A DNA stretch of 35,719 nucleotides, taken from assembly GCA_002722845.1 (NCBI GenBank), contig PBND01000009.1, positions 1-35,719 of the forward strand, in the 5' to 3' direction. The first letter of the stretch is position 1; the number at the start of each line of letters is the position of its first letter. Position numbers and translations under genes: made by a program. The DNA is from Myxococcales bacterium (lineage in GTDB: Bacteria; Myxococcota; UBA4151). This document shows positions 14,612 through 35,719 of the stretch, piece by piece. The notes under the pieces were generated by a model. That model did not search any database. It was not told the DNA's origin and saw only the letters and a list, made by a program, of their open reading frames with translations.

Positions 14612-17494
14612 ATGCCAAGCCGGCCTTTGCTATTGAGCTTTGTGCTCATTGCCACATCAGGCTGTGGTCAGGCCTTGCCCGACTTGATTCTGGATCGCAG
14701 CGGCAGCGTGTGTGGTGACGGGGTCACCCAGTCGGGTGAAGCCTGTGATGACGGCAACGATAACGACTTTGATGCCTGTCTCTCCACCTGTCGAGAAGCC
14801 AGTTGTCACGATGGGTTTCGGCGCAGTGACATTATGCCAGGGATGGCTGGCTATGAGGCCTGTGACGATGGGAACACGGATGATGACGATGGCTGTGTCC
14901 TCGACTGCATACAAGCTCGCTGTGGCGATGGCCTGATTCGACGAGATCTCGATTTGCAGGTTCCCGGTTTTGAGGCCTGTGACGATGGTGATGACAGCGA
15001 CCCTAATGACGGCTGTCACGGTTGCAAGGCCCCGGGCTGTGGTGATGGCGTCGTTCAGGCCAATGAGGAATGTGATGACGGAAATGGGGTCGACAACGAC
15101 GCCTGTATTGAATGTCTCAACGCTCGCTGTGGTGATGGTGTCCGGCGGGTCGGTGAAGGCGGGGAGGCCTGCGATGATGGAAATGTGGACAATTCCGACG
15201 ATTGCACAACGGATTGTGAGCCGCCTCGCTGCGGCGACGGCTACCGGCAGGATGGTGAAGCTTGTGATGACGGTAATGGAAGAGACGCCGACGCTTGCAC
15301 CAACGCTTGCGAGGAAGCGACCTGTGGCGATGGGATCGTGCGTCGGGACCTTGCAGAGGGGCTCCCTGATGCCGAGGGCTGCGACGATGCCGATGAGGAC
15401 AACCATGACGCCTGTACAAATGACTGCTTGCGAGCTCGTTGCGGTGACAACATCGTCCAGCGTCATTTTGAGGCCTGCGATGACGGCAATGAAAGTCCCG
15501 ATGATTCTTGCGTGAACTGTGTCCAGCCGACCTGCGGCGATGGAGTGGTTGACGCCGATGAGGAGTGCGATGACGGCAACGAAGACAACCGAGACGCCTG
15601 TACGGACCTCTGTCTCCACGCTCGCTGCGGTGATGGATTTCAACGCCAAGACCTCGCCCAGGATGAAGCGGGTGGGGAGTTCTGCGATGATGGCAACGAA
15701 CTGGAGCAGGACGCGTGCCTAAACAACTGCGAACTCAGCCGCTGTGGTGATGGTGTCCAGCGTTTAGATCGGTTGCGGGGGGAGCCGGGCTTCGAAGCCT
15801 GCGACGATGGGAACGAGGTCCCTGATGATGGTTGCACAGATGCCTGCCGCAGTGGCTGCGGCGACGGTCTCCTGGCCGAGGGGGAAGCCTGTGACGATGG
15901 CAACGACGAAGACGCCGATGCCTGCACCAATGGCTGCACCGAGGCCAGGTGTGGTGATGGTGTCCAGCGGCAGGATCTCGACCCAGAGGCCGCCGGCTAT
16001 GAGTTCTGCGATGATGGCAACGAGTCCAGTGAAGATGGCTGTACAGACATCTGCCGAATCGCTCGCTGTGGCGATGGGGTCGTCCGGCGTGACTTGCAAC
16101 CGGATCAAGACGGTTTTGAAGCCTGCGATGACGGGAATGAGGACAACACAGATGAATGCACGGTGATGTGTCAGCCGCCCCGTTGTGGTGATGGCATCCT
16201 CCACGAGGGTGAAGCCTGTGATGATGGGAATGCAGTGGCCGGCGATGGCTGTCTTCTCGACTGCGAAGCCGCCGTCTGTGGCGACGGGGTTCGCCGGCTC
16301 GATCGGGTCGATGGCGAACCCGGCTACGAGGCCTGTGACGATGGCAATATCGAATCGGGCGACGGGTGTCGCGGCGATTGCAGCAAGGTCGAGGTGATCA
16401 GCATCTGGGCCGGTGCTCAAAACTCCTGCGCAACTTTTGGTAATGGTCGTGCACGGTGTTGGGGGCGTAATTCTCAGCACAGAGAAGTTGAGCGAATCGC
16501 TGATGAAGAGGATGTGGTCTGGGCCGCGTGTATTAGTCAGAGGCTCGGTGTTTTTGGCGACCAGCCGGTCTACACCACCCTTCACCGAAATGGCCGTGTT
16601 AAGTGTGTCGCTCCCGCAGGGACTCGCTACCGCCCTTATGCCTGTGGTCATGCGGACCCTTGGCTGATGGTGGCTCCCGACCAACCTCTAGAGGGTGTTG
16701 TGCAGGTCGACCTTGATAGAGATTTGGGTTGTGCACTCACCGGCGAGGGGCAGGTCTATTGTTGGGGGGAAAGAGATAATGTCGGAACCGATGGGTTTCT
16801 CGCTGACCGAGTTGTTCCGATCGAGTCGCAATTCGAATTTGCCGAGATAGCGGTCGCTCCATCTCTGGCCTGTGGTCGAGCACGAGAATCAGGCCAGGTC
16901 TATTGTTGGGGCGATTATGTTAACCACCATTATGATCAGCCGACACTGATTGCTGGCACCGCGAATACAAACAGCTTAGCGATGGGAGAAGGCTTTGGGC
17001 TTGCAATGACGGAGGGGGGGATACTTGCTTGGGGTAGCGCTGGTTGTGGTCATTTTCCCTATTTCACTGGCCAGCACTCTTGCTGGGGCGGGCGGCTAAG
17101 GTTTTCTCAACATTCTCAGCTCATTGATTGGCCTGCCGATGAGGACCGATGGATTCAGATGGCCGGCTCGGGTTTTTCCTCAAAACCGGTGGACCAGACG
17201 ATTGCCTTTAGTTGTGGTGTGACCGCCAATCACCAGATGACATGTGTCGGACGTACGCCATGGCGCCCCTTGTTACCAGGCGACCGCAACTTCGATGAAT
17301 TAGCGCAAGATGCGAGGCAGCCTTCGCTCGCCCCGCTTCCCGATGGCGAGGAGGTCGTGGAAGTGAGGCTTGGTTATAGTCATGGCTGTGCCCGCACTCG
17401 GATCGGCCGTGTGTATTGTTTTGGTGGCAACGAGCATGGGCAGGCAGGTTTAGGAACTGAATACCTTAACCAACCAACCCTGATTATTCCCTAG
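14612..17494 (+). CDS. DUF4215 cysteine-rich repeat lipoprotein with RCC1-like head
   Basis: The 960-residue lipoprotein has signal [18 protein letters not shown] (Cys18). Residues about 34-590 are 16 DUF4215 repeats; the second starts CHDG and the seventh has CDDAD in place of CDDGN. The head (about 591-960) repeats C-A/G...G-x-V/A-x-CWG units such as [26 protein letters not shown] and IGRVYCFG followed by NEHGQAGLG. This is the signature of bacterial RCC1/BNR-type beta-propellers, here with conserved Cys that could form disulfides. The head-coding DNA is lower in GC than the stalk (hand counts: 128/240 versus 147/240 in sampled lines). Only a weak GGGGA ribosome-binding site precedes the ATG. 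Binding partner is unknown. Confidence 0.88.
14711..16381 (+). repeat. 16-unit DUF4215 coding repeat array
   Basis: There are sixteen units with the core CDDGN, including irregular copies (units 2, 3, 7 and 8). Long units carry an insert of the form QRxDLxxGxxGYEAC; short units lack it. This is the longest uninterrupted array on the + strand and forms the stalk of the RCC1-headed protein. Confidence 0.9.
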
Positions 17495-22351: not shown

Positions 22352-24739
22352 CTAGCGGCAAGCGCAGATGCGAGCGCCGGAATAGTTGCCGTTGTTATAA
22401 CCTGAACTGCCGCAGTCGGCGCTTGCGTTCACTTCCGCCCGGGATTCGGTCACGTTACAACCCGTTACTTCCGCGTTAAAGCCGTTGAATACCCATGTGT
22501 TCGACCAGCACCCAAGGCCGAAATAGGACCGATCCCAGTTGTTGCTGTGGAGGGTGAAGTGCCCAGCGTCCGTGGGGCCCACATTGCCGTCCTGTCTTCG
22601 AAAGCTCAGGCCCAAATGCTCCCGAACCAGCCGGTGGTAGTTCGTCTGGTTCGCTGAACCGTAACTGACAAGGCCATCGAGATCGCCCTCATGGCAACTC
22701 CGCCCCCGGGCCGCACATGCGCTTGTACAGGACTCAGAATTGCTTCTGGCAAGGGTGACGAGATAGGAGTTCCCGTCGATCGTGACCCGTTTGAGGTGGT
22801 CGCCTAGGGCCTCGGAGCAATCACCTTCGCAGTCCGGGCCGCCGTCACAGGCTTCCACCCCTGCCTGGACATGGCCATCGCCACAAATGGCGTCGGCGCA
22901 ATCGATACAGGCATCGGTGTTGATCTCATTCTCATCATCGCAAGCTTCACCGGCCTGGACGATGCCATCACCACAACGGGGCGTGGTGCAGGCGTTGCTG
23001 CAATCATTGTCGTTGATCTCATCGCCGTCATCGCAGCCTTCTCCCGCTTGTTCGATGCCATCACCGCACCGCGGCGTGGTGCAGGCGTTGCTGCAATCGT
23101 TGTCGTTGATCTCATCCCCATCATCACAAGCCTCGACGCCATCCTGGATCTGGCCGTCACCACAGCGGGCAGCGGCGCAATTGTTGAGACAGGCATCGAT
23201 TTGGACTTCGTTGCCATCATCACAGGCTTCACCTGCTTGTTGGAAACCGTCGCCGCATCGGGCTTCGGCACAGGCGTTGGTGCAGGTATCCTCGTTGATT
23301 TCATTACCGTCATCACAGGCCTCAAAGTTGATCTGACCTTGGGCCACGTCGGCCCGCAGGATGCCGTCGCCACAACGGGCTTGAAGACAGTTGTTCGTAC
23401 ACGCGTCATTGGCCACGTCGTTGGCATCGTCGCAGGCTTCGTAGCCAGCAGCGCCAGGCTCTAGATCCCGGCGCAAAATGCCGTCGCCGCAACGAGCCTG
23501 TTCACAGGCGTTGCTACAAGCATCTACATTGGAGCGATTGCCATCATCGCAGGCTTCGTCTTCGTGAACGATACCGTCCCCACAAGTCGCCAGGGGCCGG
23601 ATCTGACAGTCTGAGGTGCAGCCGTCGTCTTCAATCGCATTGCCATCGTCACAGGCTTCGTAACCATCGGCACCTTCGGCAAGGTCCGCTCGTAGGAGGC
23701 CATCGCCACATCGGGCATGTTCGCAGGCATTCGTGCAGGCGTCCTGGGCCACCACGTTGCCATCATCGCAGGCTTCTTCGATCCCGAGGAGGTGGCCATC
23801 GCCGCAGCGGGCGACCCGGCAATCGTTGAGACAGTGGTCCGTTTGCTCGTCGTTGCCGTCATCACACTGCTCGTAGCCGGGATCTTCCGCTTGCAGGTCG
23901 CTGCGGTGAATGCCGTCGCCACAGCGGGCGGGGAGACACTGGGTTGTACAGGCATCCTGAGGGACGGCGTTGCCATCGTCGCAGCTTTCTTGGTCGGCCC
24001 AGAGGATCCCATCGCCACAGCGGGCAGCGGCACAGCTGTTAAGACAGGCATCGGTTTCGACCTCATTGCCATCATCGCAGAACTCGCCGTCTTGAACATA
24101 ACCATCACCGCAGGTGCTGGGGGTGCAATTGGCACAGGCATCGGTGGGGTCCTCGTTGCCGTCATCACAACCCTCCCCAGGACCAAGGACGCCGTCACCG
24201 CAACGGGCTTCTTCACAGTTGCTACGACATGCGTCGTCGTCGGAGGCGTTGCCATCATCGCAAGCCTCGTAGCCGGCTTCATTTGGCTCGAGGTCGGTCC
24301 TAAGGACCCCATCACCGCAACGCGCAGGCTCGCAGTCGGTTTTGCAGGCGTCAGACTCCACCGTGTTGCCATCATCGCAGGCTTCAAAGCCGAGTCCGCC
24401 TTCACTGACGTCGGCCCGGACGACCCCGTCGCCACAGACGGCCACTTGGCAGGTGTTCAGGCAGGCATCACCATCCAAATCATTGCCATCGTCACAGGTC
24501 TCATGGCCGACTTCCCCGATGGATAGATCCGTTCGGGTCACCCCGTCACCACAGCGAGCGAGATCGCAGCCATTGGTGCATTCATCGGAGTTGACCTCGT
24601 TGCCATCATCACAGGCTTCGCCCAATTCAAGCTCGCCATTACCACAGGAGCCCTGTTGTTGTTGGACGACCACCTGTTCCGAACAAGCGGCTGCGAGGCT
24701 GATGCAGATCAATAGGCTGAGTTTTTTGGGGTTGGTCAT
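22352..24739 (-). CDS. DUF4215 cysteine-rich repeat lipoprotein with unrecognised cysteine-rich head
   Basis: The 795-residue product is read from the ATG at 24739 (GAGGAG upstream), which gives the lipoprotein signal [19 protein letters not shown] (Cys19); the frame extends upstream to 24883 without a signal. It carries 17 full DUF4215 repeats plus a degenerate eighteenth ([11 protein letters not shown]). Repeats 15 and 16 are nearly identical. The last about 155 residues form a head rich in Cys, Asn, Ser and Tyr ([29 protein letters not shown], and [11 protein letters not shown] at the C-terminus). I cannot assign it; the paired Cys and Trp/Gly pattern is lectin-like in feel only. The stalk is paralogous to that of 7494-9668. 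It sits between a MYXO-CTERM-like protein gene and msrAB on the same strand. Confidence 0.87.
22817..24646 (-). repeat. 18-unit DUF4215 coding repeat array (last unit degenerate)
   Basis: Seventeen regular units and one shortened unit make this the longest array of the window. Units 5-7 ([37 protein letters not shown]) match units 5-7 of the array at 8229-9584 almost residue for residue, and units 11-12 match that array's units 9-10. Confidence 0.9.
22981..23116 (-). repeat. Recent 93-bp tandem duplication within the DUF4215 array
   Basis: Bases 22981-23023 and 23074-23116 are identical except for one base, offset by 93 bp (31 codons). They encode consecutive repeats both reading [19 protein letters not shown]. 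Other units of the array are far more divergent, so this pair is the youngest event in it. Confidence 0.85.
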
Positions 24740-24798
24740 CTTCGACTTCTCCTCGGTGGAGCTTAATGGAGCCACCTGCGGGGGACAAGCGCCGCACC

Positions 24799-25842
24799 CT
24801 ACGTGTGTCTGCGTCGGCGGAGGATGCTCCCCAGAATGAGAATGCAGAGACCAGGAGCGATGGATGTGGCGCCACAGTGGCACCCCACCGAATCGGCTGC
24901 TTTCGGTGGCGGATCCGAGTTGGCTTCGGGCTCGGCTCGAGTCCGCTTACAGTTCGATTGGGCCAAAGGGGTCGGGCTGGCCTCGCAGGTGAAGTACAAG
25001 CGGAGCCCCGAAGCACTGTAGCTCATCGCTTCGCATTGCCCATCCCCGTAGACTGGAGCCTTCAGAGCGGGGGCGAAATCCGTGACCACCCCATCGGTAC
25101 GAAGGAGTTCGAGGCGATAGCCGGCGCCATAGGTCCCAAGAAAGAGTTCGGAACCCGTGGGGTCGATGTCGGCTTGGGTCACCAACAAGGCTTCCGTGCC
25201 CCCCTCCAGGGACACACGGGTCACAAGCTCCGCCTCGAAGGGCTCCTGTGAGCCGTTCCAGGCCGCGGCTGGAATCCGATAGGCAGAAGCGACACGGTCA
25301 AATGCCTTCTCGACGATGAAGAGGTCGCCGGTCTTTGGGTCGACCGCCAGTCCTTCTGCATCCCGGGGGCCCTCTGGATACACCAGGTCCAAGGGCTCGG
25401 CTTGTCCCCTTACCGTCTGTCCGGCACCCGGTGCTGGGGGCTCGGGGACGCGCCAGATCGTGACCTTGCTCCTCGCAGCTGCATTGTCGCCGATATCGCC
25501 GATGAAAAGACAGGTTTGATCGCCGCATGGGCCCAGCCCTAAGGCTTCCCAATCGGTGGCATCGACCCCGTCCAGTTCCAGTCGGCCCATTGCGGTGCCG
25601 TCGGAACGAAAAGCATAGACGAAGGGACCGCCCCCTGAATCGTTGTGGCTCCAGAGCAGATCTGGAAATTGCCGGGAGCAGGCCAGGCCGCTGGATTCAA
25701 TCAGTGCTGGGATCTGCAGTCGACTCTTGAGGCTCGCCTCGTCGAATTCGAGGCATGCCGCGGCGCCCAAAGCGGTCGAAGGCAGCATGCCGCTGACCAG
25801 GATTGCGAACAGCAGGCCTCCATTCCCGGTGCTGCCCCCCAT
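24799..25842 (-). CDS. Exported beta-propeller protein with MYXO-CTERM-like tail
   Basis: The 347-residue protein starts with [29 protein letters not shown], a Sec signal. The body has propeller-like strands of a family with [39 protein letters not shown] and [20 protein letters not shown], resembling the esterase-like/phytase-like propellers. The C-terminus is [27 protein letters not shown]: paired Cys, a hydrophobic segment, then an Arg cluster. This is the layout of MYXO-CTERM sorting tails, which are processed by myxosortase and lead to surface attachment. The ATG at 25842 overlaps the upstream stop in TGATG, so translation is coupled to the fibrinogen-headed protein. Substrate unknown. 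Confidence 0.83.
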
Positions 25843-27761
25843 CAACCGCCGCCCTCGGCCCTTCGGTAGAAGACTTCAAGACTCCCCCGTCCGAGCGTGC
25901 TGCCATTGATGATCAGGGGCTGATTGATGAACCAGGCCGTGGAGTAGACGCAGAAATAGGCGTCGCTGGAGTCGTTCGCACCCACACACAACTCGTTGTA
26001 GGCCCCCACATCGCAGAAGCCAAACATGCAGCCCCTGGGGTCCTCCATATTGCGGTTGGCGCAAACCAAGTCGCCAACATCGTCCGGGATGTCCTCGACC
26101 GCCCCGGCCCCACCCACTCGGTTGAGACCGAGTTGATCGTCACAGATGCGCCAGTCGTTGGTGATGTCTTCATTAAAGGTGAGTAATTCATCCATTTGGC
26201 CCTCTTGGGACTCGGTGACCACCAGGGTATGCACACTGGCCGGTGAACTTTGATCGGCGCGAAAATGACCGATGTTGACGTCATAGACCCGGAACATCAA
26301 CTGGACAGCCCCGAGGCCCCGACAGATTTCGGGGAAGTTGGGGGCCGGCCGTGCAGCGCCGGTGGCGATGAGGCATCGGCTCCACGGGCCACCCCGCTCG
26401 TTGGCCAGGTCCATATCGCAGTAACTCTCCACAACCTGATCGTGCTGAATGAGGAAATATCGACCGCTGGGGAGTTCGGGATAGCGCTCATTGAGAGTTT
26501 GGCAATCGGCCACCGCCTTTGCCACGCTGCTGCCGTCGGGAAATGCGGTACAGTCGTTTTGACAGGCATCGTCGTCGACCCGATTGCCATCGTCGCAGAC
26601 CTCGTAGCCTGGCTGGTCCGCTGCGAGGCCTCGACGCAAGACACCATCACCACAGCGGGCAGCCGTACAGTCATTCAGGCAGGCGTCATCGTTGACACCG
26701 TTGCCATCGTCACAGTCTTCGCCCGCGTCGACGCGACCATTGCCACAGATCTCGGCGCCGCAAGTCGGTGAACAGCCATCGCCCGGCTCCCCATTGCCAT
26801 CATCGCATTCCTCGTAACCGGGTTGACCGACGCCCACATCGGCCCGCTGGATGCCATCACCACAGCGGGCCAAGCTGCAGTCGAGTCGACAGGCATCGGA
26901 ATCCACCCCATTGCCATCGTCGCAGGCTTCGCCTTCTTGGACCGACTGGTCACCACATCGGGGCAGGAGACAGTTGTTTCGGCAACCGTTCCGGTCATCT
27001 CGGTCGCCGTCATCACAGGCTTCAAACCCCGACGCTCCTTCCACTCGGTCCGTGCGCAGAACACCGTCGCCGCAGCGGGCCACCTGGCAGGTGACTCGGC
27101 AGGCGTCTTCATCGACCTCGTTGCCATCGTCGCATTCTTCGAAGCCTGTACGAATCACGCCATCGCCACAGCGACTTGCAGTGCAGTCGTTGCGGCAGCC
27201 ATCGGAATCCACCGCATTACCGTCATCACAGGCTTCATAGCCAGCGTCATCGACCCCGAGGTCCTGCCGGACCACCCCGTCGCCACAACGGGCTTCGTCA
27301 CAGGTGTTCAAACAGCCATCAAAGGGGTTTTGATTGCCATCGTCACAGCTTTCGATTTGGCCGTCAGCCCCTCGGCCACCCGGGACCCCATCACCACAGA
27401 TATTGGCGAGGCAATCCCCTCGGCAGTCATCGTCGTCCCGCTCATTACCATCGTCGCATTGTTCGAATCCTGGGGCCCCCAACAGGAGGTCGAGCCGGTG
27501 GATACCATCACCGCAGCGGGCTCGGACGCAGCTCGATAGGCAACCGTCTTGGTCATCAGCGTTGCCATCGTCACAGGTTTCGGCCCCCTGTCTTAAACCA
27601 TCGCCGCAGCGACCATCGCCACCGCCGGCCGAGACCAGCAGGCTCGGAAGGGGCGCACTGCATCCGCCCCATGGGAGGATGAGAAGAAAGAGCAGGAGCT
27701 GAGACCGACCGCAAAGCGCAAACCGGAAGGGGAGCCATCGATCGGAGTTGGATGCATTCAT
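25842..27761 (-). CDS. DUF4215 cysteine-rich repeat lipoprotein with fibrinogen-like head
   Basis: The 639-residue protein is read from the ATG at 27761 (AAGAAGG upstream). A long n-region precedes the hydrophobic stretch QLLLFLLILPWGGC with Cys34 in a plausible lipobox. Ten DUF4215 repeats follow (about residues 52-405). The head (about 406-639) opens with DCQTLNERYPELPSGRYFLI and YCDMDLANERGGPWSRCL, the SG-x-Y...CDM...GGxW pattern of fibrinogen-related and COLF1-like domains. It later has DDVGDLVCANRNM and SSDAYFCVYSTAWF, with several Cys. Such heads usually bind glycans or proteins; that role here is inferred. It ends in RRAEGGG and overlaps the MYXO-CTERM-like gene. A signal-peptidase I reading of the N-terminus is possible. 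Confidence 0.83.
   Translation of the reverse strand: MNASNSDRWLPFRFALCGRSQLLLFLLILPWGGCSAPLPSLLVSAGGGDGRCGDGLRQGAETCDDGNADDQDGCLSSCVRARCGDGIHRLDLLLGAPGFEQCDDGNERDDDDCRGDCLANICGDGVPGGRGADGQIESCDDGNQNPFDGCLNTCDEARCGDGVVRQDLGVDDAGYEACDDGNAVDSDGCRNDCTASRCGDGVIRTGFEECDDGNEVDEDACRVTCQVARCGDGVLRTDRVEGASGFEACDDGDRDDRNGCRNNCLLPRCGDQSVQEGEACDDGNGVDSDACRLDCSLARCGDGIQRADVGVGQPGYEECDDGNGEPGDGCSPTCGAEICGNGRVDAGEDCDDGNGVNDDACLNDCTAARCGDGVLRRGLAADQPGYEVCDDGNRVDDDACQNDCTAFPDGSSVAKAVADCQTLNERYPELPSGRYFLIQHDQVVESYCDMDLANERGGPWSRCLIATGAARPAPNFPEICRGLGAVQLMFRVYDVNIGHFRADQSSPASVHTLVVTESQEGQMDELLTFNEDITNDWRICDDQLGLNRVGGAGAVEDIPDDVGDLVCANRNMEDPRGCMFGFCDVGAYNELCVGANDSSDAYFCVYSTAWFINQPLIINGSTLGRGSLEVFYRRAEGGG
26550..27608 (-). 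repeat. 10-unit DUF4215 coding repeat array
   Basis: There are ten units. Unit 3 has an unusual insert (CGDGVPGGRGADGQIESC), unit 7 begins CGDQ and unit 9 begins CGNG. This is the shortest of the four arrays in the window and the stalk of the fibrinogen-headed protein. Confidence 0.9.
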
Positions 27762-27885
27762 GATGACCTTCTTAAGTGAAAACGCGCGCCCGCTCAAAAC
27801 CCCCGAACCGCCCCCAGAAAGCACCACGGTGCTGGATCATCCGCCGACTGCCTTGTACGGGGAGGGTAGAGAGGCGAGGAAAGCC

Positions 27886-29062: not shown

Positions 29063-29139
29063 TGCGGGGTGGAGAAGCTGGCCATCTCGTCGGGCTCATA
29101 ACCCGAAGATCGCAGGTTCGAATCCTGCCCCCGCTACCA
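29063..29139 (+). tRNA. Initiator tRNA-Met (CAT anticodon)
   Basis: This is a 77-base cloverleaf with encoded CCA. Acceptor arms are TGCGGGG (29063-29069) and CCCCGCT (29129-29135), the D stem is GAGA/TCTC, the anticodon stem TCGGG/CCCGA encloses CTCATAA (anticodon 29097-29099), and the T arm is GCAGG-TTCGAAT-CCTGC. The three G:C pairs of the anticodon stem, the A11:U24 pair and the unpaired 1:72 position identify it as initiator, not elongator. Position 1:72 is U:U here in place of the canonical C:A. The TGA of the PqiA-like gene is 35 bases upstream. Confidence 0.95.
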
Positions 29140-29144
29140 ACGAT

Positions 29145-29174
29145 ACAGGCGCTTCGGCGCCTGTTCTCGTTTTT
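29145..29174 (+). terminator. Rho-independent terminator of the initiator tRNA
   Basis: ACAGGCGC-TTCG-GCGCCTGT is a perfect 8-bp stem with a TTCG tetraloop at 29145-29164, followed by TCTCGTTTTT. It starts 5 bases after the tRNA CCA end. This is the only clear intrinsic terminator in the window. Confidence 0.92.
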
Positions 29175-29255
29175 CAGCGGTAGAGCCCCCCGCCACCGGG
29201 GCCTGTCCATTGGCAGGCCGGCCTGTTCAGACTACAGGGGAAGTGGAGCCAGCCG

Positions 29256-30377
29256 ATGACTGAAATTGGCCCGGTGCCCTGGGCCTGCTCTGGGCCTGTG
29301 TTAGCGCCGCCCGACCTCCGTATCGGGCGCCGGCTTGGTTTGCAGATCTTCCAAGTTGCCGTGAACTGGCCCGCTCTGCAGCCAAAGGGGAGAGGGTTTC
29401 GTCGTGATCCGGCGCTGCTCGATCCCTACGATCGCGTTGTGGATCACCTCCTCGAACAAGAGCTGGAGCCCCAATTTAGTCTCCACGGGGGCGAGTTGCC
29501 GACCTCGCTTCAACTGGACGGTGGATGGACCCGCCGGGACAATGCGAAGCGCTTTGTGGATTTTGCGGAAGGGATGAGTCGCCGCCTGGGGGACCGGGTC
29601 GAGCGATGGCTGACCCTTCAGGATCTGACGGCCATCGCCAGTTGGGAGGGGGGCGAACTTCACAGCGCCGATGGTCCGGGTTTACGCTACTTGAAAGCCT
29701 GCCATCATCTCCTCCTGGCCCACGCCTGGGCCAGCAAGATCATTGCTGAGAACGTTCACAGTCCACACATCGATGTCGAGTTTCGTTGCCCGGAACTGGG
29801 TCCGGAGGCGGACCGAGATGAAGACCCGAGCCACCATCGCTGGATTCTCGACCCCCTTTCCGGGCAGGGCTACCCGGAAGAAGGTCTCCACGACCGCCGG
29901 GACCAGGGCGTTCTATCTAGCCTCGTGCCGAGTTTTGCCGAACGGGGCGACCTTCAACTCATTGGTTCAGCCTTGGGCGGAATCCGTCTGATCGTTGACT
30001 GGCCCTGGCGTGCGGCGCATTACGGCCCGTTCGAGCGAGTGCTCCATGGCCTCAGCGAGCGGCCGCTCTCGCTGCATTTGCGGCAGGGGCTAGGGGCTTC
30101 GCAGTTGGCCCATCCGGCCAATGATGAGGCTCGAGTCGAACTGTTGCGCGATCAACTGGAGTCACTTGCATCAGCCAGTAGCAAGGGCTTGAACCTTCAA
30201 CAAATCCAACTTGGCCCTTTGCTGGATGAGGAGCAATGGGCCGATGGAGCGAGGCCTCAACCGGGATTGGTTTGGATCGACCCATACACGAGGCGAAGAT
30301 GGCCGAAGGCCAGTGGTCTTTTTGTGCAACGCTTCGTTGTCGAGGGGCACGTTGCGCGGACAGACTTGGGCCACTAA
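29256..30377 (+). CDS. Glycoside hydrolase family 1-like protein lacking both catalytic glutamates
   Basis: The 373-residue protein follows the GH1 beta-glucosidase pattern: FQVAVNWPALQPKGRGF (about 32-49), DPYDRVVDHLLEQELEPQF, GGWTRRDNAKRFVDFAEGMSRRLGDRVERW, HRWILDPLSGQGYPEE (about 194-209) and a C-terminal GLVWIDPYTRRRWPKASG. The acid/base motif TLNEP reads T120-L-Q-D-L, and the nucleophile motif TENG reads L275-R-Q-G278, so both catalytic Glu are replaced (Asp and Arg). The HWDLP strand reads GGELP. It is about 80 residues shorter than typical GH1 enzymes, mostly between the two sites. No signal peptide is seen, and the ATG at 29256 follows AGGGGAAGTGGAG. Hydrolysis is unlikely; a binding or regulatory role is inferred. 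Confidence 0.8.
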   Translation: MTEIGPVPWACSGPVLAPPDLRIGRRLGLQIFQVAVNWPALQPKGRGFRRDPALLDPYDRVVDHLLEQELEPQFSLHGGELPTSLQLDGGWTRRDNAKRFVDFAEGMSRRLGDRVERWLTLQDLTAIASWEGGELHSADGPGLRYLKACHHLLLAHAWASKIIAENVHSPHIDVEFRCPELGPEADRDEDPSHHRWILDPLSGQGYPEEGLHDRRDQGVLSSLVPSFAERGDLQLIGSALGGIRLIVDWPWRAAHYGPFERVLHGLSERPLSLHLRQGLGASQLAHPANDEARVELLRDQLESLASASSKGLNLQQIQLGPLLDEEQWADGARPQPGLVWIDPYTRRRWPKASGLFVQRFVVEGHVARTDLGH

Positions 30378-30447: not shown

Positions 30448-31629
30448 GTGCTCTTTCGAGACCAAAAACTTATCGTTCTTGCGAGCCTTGTCACCTTTAT
30501 CGCCTGCGGTGGGGACGGGCCGAATGAGCCAGAACAAACTCGCAACTGCGATCCGGGCGCGACGCAAGCATGTACCTGCGTAGGGGGCGAGAACGGAGCG
30601 CAAAGTTGCGAGGGTGATGGCGCCGGCTGGGCTGACTGCGTCTGCACTGGCGGTGGTGGTGGTGGTGGCGGCACCAGTGACTGTCCCCAAGCGGATCACT
30701 TCTTGGATGTCGCCTCGGCGCCGGGCCCTGACGAGGGGGGGCTCATGCCCCGTCTCAGCGTCGTGTGCACGGAGACGGAGGTTCGGGTGACGACGAACGA
30801 TATCCCACACTACACATTCATCCCGTTGACTCCCAACGCGCTGGTGGAAAACAACGTCACGCACATTTTCCCACGCTTTCCTGAAGTCGCTGCCGAGCCG
30901 AGTCGGATCAACGATGGCTTTCCTCAACTCGGAAGCGCCGGTGTGACCAATACGGGGCTCTCCATGAATGCCGCCAGCGAAGGACCAACCCCTGATCCTT
31001 ACGGTGATCCGGTCGCCAACGCGCTCCTCGATGCCTGTGGTGGGCACACCGGGAGGGATTATCACAACCACACCATCGCCGAGAAATGCTTCATCCCCAG
31101 CGGTCTCGTGGCCGAACCGTGGAACAACCCAGACCCCGACCCGAGTCAGCCGTCCCCTGTTCTGGGTTATGCCCTCGATGGCTTCCCGATCTACGGTAAC
31201 CGGGGCTGCGCTGATGAGGACTGCAGCCGGATCATTGAGTTTCAGTCCAGCTGGGAGAACAACTCCGCGATGGCTGGAACCCTCGGCTGTCAGGACAATA
31301 GTGTCTGCAACAACGCGGCGGTCTGTGATGATGGCCGCGATCGGAACAACGCCGGCAATGACTGCCATGTTTGCGCACCGGCCGTGGTCGATGGGCTTCG
31401 AACAACGGCCTGTATTCCGACGGAGTACGCCTTTGACACCAATGAGTGGGTGGAAAAGGACGGCGAAGCCTATCTCGACGAATGTAACGGTCGCGTTCAG
31501 CCCGATGGCAGTTACGGCTACCACATCACGCCGACCTTCCCCTACTGGGCTGGGTGCTTCCGGGGCACGGCCACCCATCTCCGTGGTGGCGGTGGTGGCG
31601 GTGGTGGCGGCGGTGGCGGTCCTCCGTAG
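30448..31629 (+). CDS. YHYH-domain lipoprotein with poly-glycine tracts
   Basis: The 393-residue lipoprotein starts at GTG 30448 (AGGAAAGG upstream) with signal MLFRDQKLIVLASLVTFIAC (Cys20). Residues about 33-67 form a myxobacterial cysteine module (CDPGATQACTCVGGENGAQSC...WADCVC), then an eight-glycine linker. The main domain matches the YHYH family: GRDYHNHTIAEKC, VLGYALDGFPIYG, EYAFDTNEWVEKDGEAYLDECNGR and GSYGYHITPTFPYWAGCFRG. The family is often exported and of unknown function. The protein ends with a run of 12 Gly then PP. The next lipoprotein starts 10 bases after its stop, with a hairpin enclosing stop and ribosome-binding site. Confidence 0.9.
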   Translation: MLFRDQKLIVLASLVTFIACGGDGPNEPEQTRNCDPGATQACTCVGGENGAQSCEGDGAGWADCVCTGGGGGGGGTSDCPQADHFLDVASAPGPDEGGLMPRLSVVCTETEVRVTTNDIPHYTFIPLTPNALVENNVTHIFPRFPEVAAEPSRINDGFPQLGSAGVTNTGLSMNAASEGPTPDPYGDPVANALLDACGGHTGRDYHNHTIAEKCFIPSGLVAEPWNNPDPDPSQPSPVLGYALDGFPIYGNRGCADEDCSRIIEFQSSWENNSAMAGTLGCQDNSVCNNAAVCDDGRDRNNAGNDCHVCAPAVVDGLRTTACIPTEYAFDTNEWVEKDGEAYLDECNGRVQPDGSYGYHITPTFPYWAGCFRGTATHLRGGGGGGGGGGGGPP

Positions 31630-32571: not shown

Positions 32572-33648
32572 ATGTCTGTCCTGCTCGTAACCAAACCGAT
32601 GACCGCACCGTGGCACGATAGCTCGAGTCAGTTGGCCCGGACCCTAGCCGAGGGGCTCCATCGTCTCGGCGCCCCCGTTGAAGTGCGGGTCATGACGACG
32701 GCCGAGGGCTCCGGCATCGATGGGGTCGTCGATGAAGTTATCTACCGCGAAGCGGGCGGTTTTTCTCCTGGAATCACCCAGAATTTACGAGTCTTTCGCC
32801 GCCTTGCAGCGGGGCGAGGTGAAGCGATGCGTCACTTCTTCTTCGCACCCAACCCGCGGGCAGCATTTGCTGCCCGGGTGGCCCATGGGCTCCGATCTCG
32901 ACCGAGTCTGCATACCCTGTGCTCCATGCCGCCCGCGGGCCAGGCCCTCAAGCCTTCGCTCTTCGCCGATCGGCAGATGGTTCTTAGCCTGGCGGCGCAG
33001 CGACGATTGGAGGCCGAGGGCGTCGAGAGCCACCTGGTGGAACCGTCGGTTCTCCCCCTTGCGTCCAGTGAGGCCGGCCAAGCCCGTTGCCGTGAAGCTT
33101 ATGGGGATTATCTCCTCTTTGCGGGAGACCTCCGCCCAGGCGGCGGGGCATTGGAAGCGTTGGAGGTCTTGGCTCGCCTGCCGGAGCCATTGAATCTCGT
33201 GGTCGCCTCCCGGCCGAAGGGGCGAGATTATCAGCGTGCCTTGGCCTCCCTAGAGCAAAGAATCCAAGACCTCCGATTGCAGGACCGGGTGCACCAGCTT
33301 GGCCGGATCGATTGGATCGGGGACTTGGTTGCGGCTGCTCGCCTACAGCTCCTCCCGGCCACCGACCTGACGGCCAAGATGGACTATCCCCTGGTGTTGC
33401 TTGAGGGGCTCGCCGCAGGTGTGCCGGCGGTGGTGGCCAGTGAAGCCCCCATGGCCGCCATTGCGGATGGGCAAAGTGTCGCTGCTGCGCCGGCTGCCGA
33501 TTCAGAGAGTCTAGGGGCTGCATGCGAAGCGGTTCTTGGGGAGAAGGCAGGAACGGCTGCCCGGGACCTGTATCGGACACGCTTTCTTCCCGAGCGCTTT
33601 GCCGAGGATGTCTTGCAGCATTACGCTGTGCTCGGGGTGGAGCCATGA
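32572..33648 (+). CDS. GT4-like glycosyltransferase (GT-B fold)
   Basis: The 358-residue protein begins MSVLLVTKPMTAPWHDSSSQLARTLAEGL, a Rossmann strand with the donor/acceptor pattern of group 1 glycosyltransferases. The C-terminal half has YLLFAGDLRPGGGALEALEVLARLP, LNLVVASRP, and the nucleotide-sugar motif YPLVLLEGLAAGVPAVVASEAPM, a variant of the usual EGFPNVLLEAMAxGxPVV with the first Glu replaced (KMDYPLVLLE). The ATG at 32572 fits the fold; starts at 32521 or 32548 lack ribosome-binding sites. The next gene overlaps by ATGA. Substrates are unknown; surface polysaccharide or lipid glycan is likely given the neighbour. Confidence 0.82.
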   Translation: MSVLLVTKPMTAPWHDSSSQLARTLAEGLHRLGAPVEVRVMTTAEGSGIDGVVDEVIYREAGGFSPGITQNLRVFRRLAAGRGEAMRHFFFAPNPRAAFAARVAHGLRSRPSLHTLCSMPPAGQALKPSLFADRQMVLSLAAQRRLEAEGVESHLVEPSVLPLASSEAGQARCREAYGDYLLFAGDLRPGGGALEALEVLARLPEPLNLVVASRPKGRDYQRALASLEQRIQDLRLQDRVHQLGRIDWIGDLVAAARLQLLPATDLTAKMDYPLVLLEGLAAGVPAVVASEAPMAAIADGQSVAAAPAADSESLGAACEAVLGEKAGTAARDLYRTRFLPERFAEDVLQHYAVLGVEP

Positions 33649-35719
33649 CGTCGACCCTGCGATGGGCCTTGCTGCTTGGCGGCGGGCTCGGTCTTATCGA
33701 TGGTCTCTTCGGCCTCTGGCGGAGTGGATTTACCGCCAGCCACCTCGTTGGTACCCTGGCGATCATCGGTCTACACCAACTGGCGGCTGTCGGTCTCGCC
33801 GTTCTTCTGTTCGGTCTACTGGGGTCGGACCGAGAACCCCTGCGGCAGTGGTGTATCGAACTCTGGCAGCAGCGGGCTGGCAGCCCGCAAGAGAGCGGTA
33901 AAACACTAGCCTTCATTCTAGGCCTTGTGATGGCGCCCCTCTCCCTCGCCGCCGGCGTGAAGGCGCTCATGAGCTTGGAAGGGGCCTTCAAGACGCCGCT
34001 CTATGTTGCCCTCGGCCAAGGTTTGGCCCTGGTCGCGGTGATCGGCCTCATCTGGATTCTGACCCTACGTTGCCAGCGATTCCTGGCCGGCTTGGAGTTC
34101 CGTTCGTTCCTTTCAAGGCTACGGATTCTGATCCTCTTGGTGGTCGTTGGCGGCCTGCTCTATCTGTATCTTTGGTACCAAAGGGATCTTCTCTTTAAAG
34201 AGGTGGAGCCATGGCTGCCGCTGGCCCTGATCTTGTTGCTGGTCGTTAGCCTCGCCGCCCAACTCCTGCCCCTTCAGACCGGTGGGAAGACCGGTCTGAT
34301 ACTTTCCCTGCTCGGGGCTTTGGTCATGGGCTTAGGCATCGGCAGCCTGCCCGGGCCCCGCCCACTGGTGGTGGGTGGCGCCCCCCTCGGCAGCCTGCTC
34401 GCCGAAGGTCTACGCCAGGCCAGCGATGTGGATCGTGATGGTGTGGCTGCCCTGGTGGGCGGGGGGGATTGTGCACCCTTTGATGGCATGATCTTCCCCG
34501 GTGCGGTGGACCTCCCCGACGACGGCATCGATCAGGACTGTCTCGGCGGCGACCTGAAGGAGAGCGTGATCATCCCGCCGAAGCCGCCCCGCTTCGCAAA
34601 GATTGCCAAAGAAGCGCGCTCTGAGTTGGTGGTGCTGGTCTCCATCGATGCCCTACGGGCCGACCGGCTGGGCGCTTATGGTTACAAAAAGCATCCGACC
34701 AGTCCCGGGCTCGATGCTTGGGCAAAGAAGGGGGCAATCTTTGAGAAAGCTTATACCTCGGGCCCCTATACGATCGCGGCCATCCCAGGCCTGCTCACCA
34801 GTCGGGGCATCAGCCAAATTCCCAACTATGTCGCAACGAAGGGGAGTTATCGCCTCGATAAGGAGCTAGAGACGATCGCCGAGGCCTTTAAGGCCGATGG
34901 TTTTCGCACGGGGGCCGTCCTGACGGGGATCGATAATGCCACCAATGATTTTGCCCAAGGCATCCAAGATCTCAACATCATCAGTACCCGTTACCTGGAC
35001 AGCGCACGAGAAACGGCCGCCGCCGCCCGTCAGTGGCTGACGCGTCATCACACCGGCAAGCGCTTCCTCTGGCTGCATTTCTTCGACCCCCACGACCCCT
35101 ATCACCCCATATCGGCCTATGACTTCGGTGGTTCAGCCAGCGCCCGCTACGATGCCTCCATCGCGTACATGGATGAGCACTTAGCGCCCCTGTTAGAAGA
35201 ACTGTCGGCCCAGCCGCGCACGACCATTGCGGTCATCTCCGATCATGGGGAGGCTTTTGGTGAGCACGGCGCCCACCATCACGGCATGGATCTCTACATG
35301 CCCAATGTGCATGTACCCCTCATCATCCGCAGTGACGGCTTGAAGCCAAGGCGCTTGAAGTCTGCGGCCAGTTCCTTGGACGTGATGCCCACCCTGCTCA
35401 ATCTGGCGGGCCTGAAGCCCCGGACCGCCTTTGGTGAGAGTCTCGTGCCCCTACTCCAAGGTGAGCCTGAGCGGATGGATCGCGGTGTGCTGACAGAGTC
35501 CTATCGAGTCGGTCAGATCTTCGCTTGGTCCACCGGGCGCTACCGTCTCATTTACCGCCTTCATGCGAACCTGTTCGAACTCTACGATCTCTCGGTGGAT
35601 CCAGGGGAGATGAACAACCTGTATCGACCTGGGACCGAGTTGAGCGACCGAATGACCATGGAACTCCTCCAGGCCATGAACCAAGGGGTCTATGTTCGTC
35701 GGGGGCTGCGGGTGAAAGA
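33645..35719 (+). CDS. Membrane sulfatase-superfamily protein with inserted MopE-type loop (3' partial)
   Basis: The frame stays open from the ATG at 33645 (overlapping the glycosyltransferase stop) to the window end, 691 residues so far. Residues about 8-255 hold six or seven membrane segments. A MopE-like metal motif follows at about 261-302 (DVDRDGVAALVGGGDCAPFD, then DLPDDGIDQDC). The alkaline-phosphatase/sulfatase domain starts at about 328: D335 in SIDALRADRLGAYG, SGPYTIAAIPGLLTSR with T376 at the nucleophile position, HFFDPHDPYHP, and D533-H534 in ISDHGEAFGEHG. A Thr nucleophile and no CxPxR sequence favour a phosphotransferase or phosphodiesterase over a formylglycine sulfatase. It probably modifies an envelope glycan or lipid made with the adjacent glycosyltransferase. 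Confidence 0.85.
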   Translation, partial: MTSTLRWALLLGGGLGLIDGLFGLWRSGFTASHLVGTLAIIGLHQLAAVGLAVLLFGLLGSDREPLRQWCIELWQQRAGSPQESGKTLAFILGLVMAPLSLAAGVKALMSLEGAFKTPLYVALGQGLALVAVIGLIWILTLRCQRFLAGLEFRSFLSRLRILILLVVVGGLLYLYLWYQRDLLFKEVEPWLPLALILLLVVSLAAQLLPLQTGGKTGLILSLLGALVMGLGIGSLPGPRPLVVGGAPLGSLLAEGLRQASDVDRDGVAALVGGGDCAPFDGMIFPGAVDLPDDGIDQDCLGGDLKESVIIPPKPPRFAKIAKEARSELVVLVSIDALRADRLGAYGYKKHPTSPGLDAWAKKGAIFEKAYTSGPYTIAAIPGLLTSRGISQIPNYVATKGSYRLDKELETIAEAFKADGFRTGAVLTGIDNATNDFAQGIQDLNIISTRYLDSARETAAAARQWLTRHHTGKRFLWLHFFDPHDPYHPISAYDFGGSASARYDASIAYMDEHLAPLLEELSAQPRTTIAVISDHGEAFGEHGAHHHGMDLYMPNVHVPLIIRSDGLKPRRLKSAASSLDVMPTLLNLAGLKPRTAFGESLVPLLQGEPERMDRGVLTESYRVGQIFAWSTGRYRLIYRLHANLFELYDLSVDPGEMNNLYRPGTELSDRMTMELLQAMNQGVYVRRGLRVK

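Follow-up and report, generated by a model that had tools for sequence, protein, structure and literature searches.

Genomic context of the locus

The window (the whole stretch of DNA analysed, 35,719 nucleotides) contains, on its forward strand, an open reading frame of 373 codons that starts with ATG and runs without stops or frameshifts (Table 1). The earlier note had described it as an intact frame with a good ribosome-binding site, and both are borne out, the latter by the GGAG upstream of the start. Base composition and G+C content at the three codon positions (0.72/0.46/0.66) are similar to those of the neighbouring genes, and the codon-usage signal is about zero across the last third of the gene. 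By eye, the product has no evident signal peptide and is therefore probably soluble and cytoplasmic.

A tRNA-Met gene lies directly upstream and forms the 5' boundary of this GH1-like gene without being part of it. It is followed by a terminator-like hairpin, and the two together stand between the GH1-like gene and a gene for a PqiA-family protein; a gene for an ArsC-family protein is also found upstream of the tRNA. On the other side, a gene coding for a YHYH-domain protein, with an N-terminus that looks lipoprotein-like by eye, begins 70 bases downstream. Next come, in this order, genes for a protein without family assignment, for a group-1 glycosyltransferase and for a member of the sulfatase family whose N-terminal region is hydrophobic. 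The last two could possibly form a pair that modifies a surface glycan or a lipid.

The GH1-like gene had been presented as lying next to envelope genes, a description that turned out to be weak, since the tRNA-Met and the hairpin intervene before the PqiA-family gene, the YHYH protein has no known functional link, and the synteny around its gene differs in the sister genus. The YHYH orthologue in one sister-genus genome (G002, L059 2-1150; 71% identity) has a different upstream gene, whose product looks by eye like a MiaE-like tRNA hydroxylase. No GH1 remnant was detected by tblastn near this orthologue in G002, and the PqiA-family neighbour had no match in the two sister-genus genomes. Nothing links the GH1-like gene to the envelope.

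Elsewhere in the window (14612-17494, 22352-24883 and 25842-27827) several genes encode large proteins containing Cys-rich DUF4215 repeats, and one of these proteins has RCC1-like repeats. These DUF4215 repeat genes produce many long spurious ORFs in other frames.

Table 1. Coordinates of the GH1-like gene, its altered motifs and the adjacent features in the window.
Feature	Position	Strand	Basis or remarks
tRNA-Met (CAT) gene	29063..29139	+	ARAGORN
Terminator-like hairpin and T-run after the tRNA	29145..29174	+	8-pair stem, loop of 4, tail TCTCGTTTTT
Shine-Dalgarno-like GGAG, 7 nt upstream of the ATG	29245..29248	+	read from the sequence
ORF of the putative GH1-derived pseudoenzyme, 373 aa	29256..30377	+	ORF list, profile and sequence searches, alignments
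HGGE in place of YHWD, residues 77-80; -1 subsite His and adjoining Trp both Gly	29484..29495	+	alignments
QDL in place of NEP, residues 122-124; acid/base Glu is Asp123	29619..29627	+	alignments
HLRQG in place of (I/V)TENG, residues 274-278; nucleophile Glu is Arg276 or Gln277	30075..30089	+	alignments
GPLLDEEQW in place of WSLLDNFEW, residues 320-328; -1 Trp is Gly320, Glu is Gln327, Trp328 kept	30213..30239	+	alignments
YHYH-domain protein gene	30448..31629		
Sulfatase-family protein gene	33645..35717		

Relationship to the GH1 family

The 373-residue protein matched the Pfam profile PF00232 with an E value of 5.2e-34 and 117.9 bits (cut-off, 22.6), in two stretches, the best of which aligns residues 19-220 with profile positions 62-272. 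The score against TIGR03356 (E = 1.4e-40, 139.6 bits) lies far under the equivalog cut-off of 478.5, which leaves the protein outside the GH1 beta-glucosidase equivalog. A sequence search of solved structures matched more than 170 chains, and those listed were GH1 enzymes. The profile score, together with the GH1-type (beta/alpha)8 fold of a structural model that is weak at residues 245-335, identifies a homologue of the GH1 family (PF00232). Judged by its sequence, the protein is unmistakably GH1-derived.

The best matches within the phylum were ordinary GH1s with ca. 35 to 41% identity, the identity to active relatives reaching 41% over approximately residues 19-237. The GH1 beta-glucosidases of the phylum (e.g., L033, L005 and L006; TIGR03356/PF00232) share with the GH1-like protein this 35 to 41% identity over approximately residues 10-237, the order of the barrel elements and many conserved structural residues outside the pocket. 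However, they are ca. 450 to 460 residues long and have the QIEG, HWD, NEP, NYY, TENG and WSLLDNFEW motifs intact, whereas here, in 373 residues, only the last Trp is left.

Loss of the active site

We aligned the protein (MAFFT) against two reference sets, namely 20 GH1 proteins from its phylum and a merged collection of 98 canonical GH1s. At residues 120-124, TLNEP has become TLQDL; the residue in the acid/base column, Asp123, is still a carboxylate, and the preceding Asn is lost too (Gln122). NE(P) is kept by all 20 phylum relatives and by nearly all of the best 80 GTDB loci. Practically all of the latter have both NE and E(N)G, the exception being a fragment (L099) without the motifs. The nucleophile column falls on Arg276 if the alignment is left ungapped and on Gln277 in the register preferred by MAFFT. 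The conclusion that the nucleophile position is inactive does not depend on the register, because there is no Asp or Glu from residue 269 to 289 in either of them. It had been claimed that both catalytic glutamates are replaced, with residues 123 and 276 on the catalytic positions. Neither Glu remains, although the acid/base replacement is still acidic; residue 123 falls where expected, and so does 276 without gaps, but MAFFT puts 277 there.

The losses go well beyond the two glutamates (Table 1). The first strand and its loop, carrying the Gln of the -1 subsite, are deleted, as is the NYY loop (Asn/Tyr) of ca. 45 residues after strand 6, for a total of ca. 80 residues, and the Arg of strand 2 has been replaced by Gln. 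Altogether, 11 of the 12 active-site columns are replaced or deleted and Trp328 alone is kept, whereas each of the 98 canonical GH1s keeps at least 11 (11 or 12 in the most divergent ones). The earlier claim of a dead active site is thereby confirmed and extended. The acid/base Glu, the nucleophile Glu and the -1 subsite residues of a GH1 retaining glycosidase are all missing, and the protein corresponds to a GH1 pseudoenzyme in the broad, Klotho-like sense, i.e., a GH1 homologue in which the catalytic residues are lost. From these replacements, retaining-glycosidase activity is very unlikely to be present; there would be no classical -1 sugar site either, and sugar binding in the old pocket seems unlikely.

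An enzyme with an altered mechanism appears improbable to us. In such an enzyme Asp123 would serve as acid/base, and water, a group of the substrate or another acid (e.g., Glu80 or Asp324/Glu325) would stand in for the nucleophile. Myrosinases are GH1 proteins able to work with one catalytic Glu missing, and the carboxylate retained at position 123 and the presence, by sequence, of Glu80 and Glu325-Glu326 within the active-site motifs would fit such a scheme. However, the Gln, His, Asn, Tyr, Trp and Glu of the -1 subsite and the Arg of strand 2 were lost together, the surroundings of the nucleophile position (269 to 289) are devoid of acidic residues, and the structural model is too weak in that region to place a new site. 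It should be noted that the strong Pfam match would lead profile-based annotation to label this gene a beta-glucosidase, so that it illustrates cleanly how misannotation can arise.

Predicted fold

The AlphaFold2 model, built with 21 sequences, had a mean pLDDT of 75.7 and a pTM of 0.81. It is good at about residues 21-180 and 190-240 and poor at about 245-285 and 310-335. A control model of the canonical relative L033, made with the same 21 sequences, reached a pLDDT of 94.0 and a pTM of 0.93. The matches listed by Foldseek against the PDB were GH1 enzymes, with TM scores of ca. 0.72 and an rmsd mostly of 5 to 6 Å. Because of this pattern and of the distribution of model confidence, the scaffold is kept in its N-terminal two thirds, and the C-terminal catalytic half is either remodelled or damaged. 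The statement that the protein keeps the GH1 scaffold would then hold for the N-terminal two thirds, but not for the ca. 80 deleted residues, nor for the part from about 245 to 335, where the model is weak.

Distribution and origin

The class to which the source genome belongs is represented by three of the genomes searched, the other two being from a sister genus. The phylum is probably Myxococcota, to judge from named loci, such as Polyangium, that group with relatives from it. No orthologue of the GH1-like protein was found in 195 genomes of the phylum, and the two sister-genus genomes gave no match at all. Searching GTDB genomes and viral contigs by peptide pattern, with this protein as the sole query, recovered no orthologue, and neither did an alignment-guided GTDB scan among its best 80 matches, which were canonical GH1s plus the fragment L099. 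Within these searches the protein is a single-genome oddity, although orthologues outside the phylum may exist. In the tree, its branch has a length of 4.81 (median, 0.35), and for this reason the origin of the gene cannot be placed. A position beside sequences of Actinomycetota and Acidobacteriota was recovered, but we do not trust it, given the branch length and the unstarred fork.

The source genome is a draft of 2.68 Mb in 92 contigs, 70% complete, and no close relative confirms the sequence. Still, an assembly or sequencing artefact, be it a chimeric contig or consensus errors, is hardly credible as the source of the altered gene, since base composition, codon-position G+C and the intact frame fit the neighbouring genes and random errors would add frameshifts instead of singling out active-site columns.

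Selection versus neutral decay

Conserved columns were defined as those with at least 90% conservation across the 98 relatives, giving 112 columns (12 active-site and 100 other). Each of the relatives keeps at least 97 of these ca. 112. The GH1-like protein keeps 51 of the 100 other columns and 1 of the 12 in the active site; counting only undeleted columns, the figures are 51/85 and 1/9 (Fisher p = 0.006, a value that is only indicative because the active-site list, based on knowledge of the family, was drawn up after the conservation table had been seen). We also ran 400 neutral simulations that started from a real GH1 gene (L033) and stopped when 8 of the 9 active-site residues had changed. 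They accumulated at least 4 stops (mean, 13.7) and kept a mean of 23.7 of the 85 conserved columns, versus 0 and 51 in the observed gene. Differences from the relatives are conservative, with a BLOSUM z of 5.8 overall and 3.4 for residues 238-373. The simulation thus rejects a simple neutral decay after the loss of activity. The lack of stops, the 51 columns kept and the conservative changes indicate, therefore, that the sequence probably continued to be maintained as a protein during much of the period after active-site loss, although part of the similarity and retention in the core predates that loss.

These results bear on the possibility that this is a decaying, functionless GH1 gene, still open by chance, in which relaxed selection allowed the active site and loops to be lost and which is bound to disappear. 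Such a fate would agree with the missing orthologues in the phylum genomes searched, the two of the sister genus included, with the very long branch, with the weakness of both the model and the codon signal in the C-terminal third and with the deletion of ca. 80 residues. We nevertheless consider it unlikely: the 373 codons hold no stop or frameshift despite the 11 lost active-site columns, about twice as many conserved columns remain as under neutrality, substitutions are conservative in the C-terminal part too, and the Shine-Dalgarno sequence is good. The earlier argument that an open frame means that the gene is not decaying agrees with the simulation in its outcome, but it was too simple for a gene with no orthologue and such a long branch.

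A probable lineage-specific GH1 pseudoenzyme

We consider it probable that the gene codes for a lineage-specific GH1 pseudoenzyme, likely a soluble binding or scaffold protein. Its ancestor would have been a canonical bacterial GH1 gene of the beta-glucosidase type, which would have lost ca. 80 residues (the first strand, the loop attached to it and the one that follows strand 6) and had its residues for sugar binding and catalysis replaced. Meanwhile, selection would have continued to favour a folded protein, at least until recently. The present protein, presumably soluble and cytoplasmic, would, if functional, bind a partner or ligand through a remodelled face of the barrel, by analogy with Klotho. 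Any specific partner role is a guess, to be taken as tentative. The case for a settled function is weakened by the lack of orthologues (in the 195 phylum genomes and among the best 80 matches of the broader scan), the very long branch and the low C-terminal pLDDT. A glycan-binding role, as proposed earlier, is not favoured, the sugar-holding residues having vanished along with the catalytic ones; for the same reason, a lectin-like function in the old pocket seems less likely than binding by the remodelled surface.

To our knowledge, most of the known GH1 pseudoenzymes come from animals (Klotho), and we found no bacterial one in the open-access literature, which is weak evidence of absence. In human alpha-Klotho, the catalytic Glu of the GH1 domains is replaced (N239 and S872), and these domains bind the hormone FGF23 and have no glycosidase activity (PMC8302672). 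The likeness resides in a GH1 domain with the catalytic Glu replaced and is an analogy of principle, not of membership. Klotho, a transmembrane co-receptor of animals, has two GH1 domains that have each lost one Glu, whereas here there is a single shortened bacterial domain, with no evident signal peptide and nearly the whole subsite lost, and there is no sign that the inactive state descends from a common ancestor. The GH28 pseudoenzymes of beetles are also glycoside-hydrolase relatives with inactivated functional sites, are under purifying selection and are biologically important (PMC6549527). They differ in fold and family, belong to insect multigene families and had their role shown by knock-down. 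It is conceivable, but doubtful as it stands, that a bacterial GH1 barrel, shortened to ca. 370 residues and stripped of almost all of its -1 subsite, has been wholly repurposed as a noncatalytic binding or regulatory protein, a counterpart of Klotho in principle, limited to one poorly sampled class. If real and maintained, the GH1-like protein would show that a barrel enzyme can shed its whole sugar site and yet be kept.

Other GH1 proteins

The same genome holds a separate, canonical GH1 (G000:C49:26461-27879; L001/L142), with orthologues (L140 and L141) in both sister-genus genomes; its presence speaks for the pseudoenzyme reading of the GH1-like gene. It has the family in common with the GH1-like protein but differs from it by its intact NEP and ENG motifs, by its deep separate branch, divergent from the BglB-type GH1s, and by an N-terminus that, with the sequence LLVGC close to it, looks by eye like that of a lipoprotein. 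Among the other relatives, a GH1 of Propionibacteriaceae (L097) has a Cys in place of the Asn before the acid/base Glu (TQCEP) in an otherwise canonical context. One sequence titled "Comamonas sp. KCTC 72670" (L061; BNCN01000012.1) groups tightly with the GH1s of the phylum studied here, and the organism name looks wrong.
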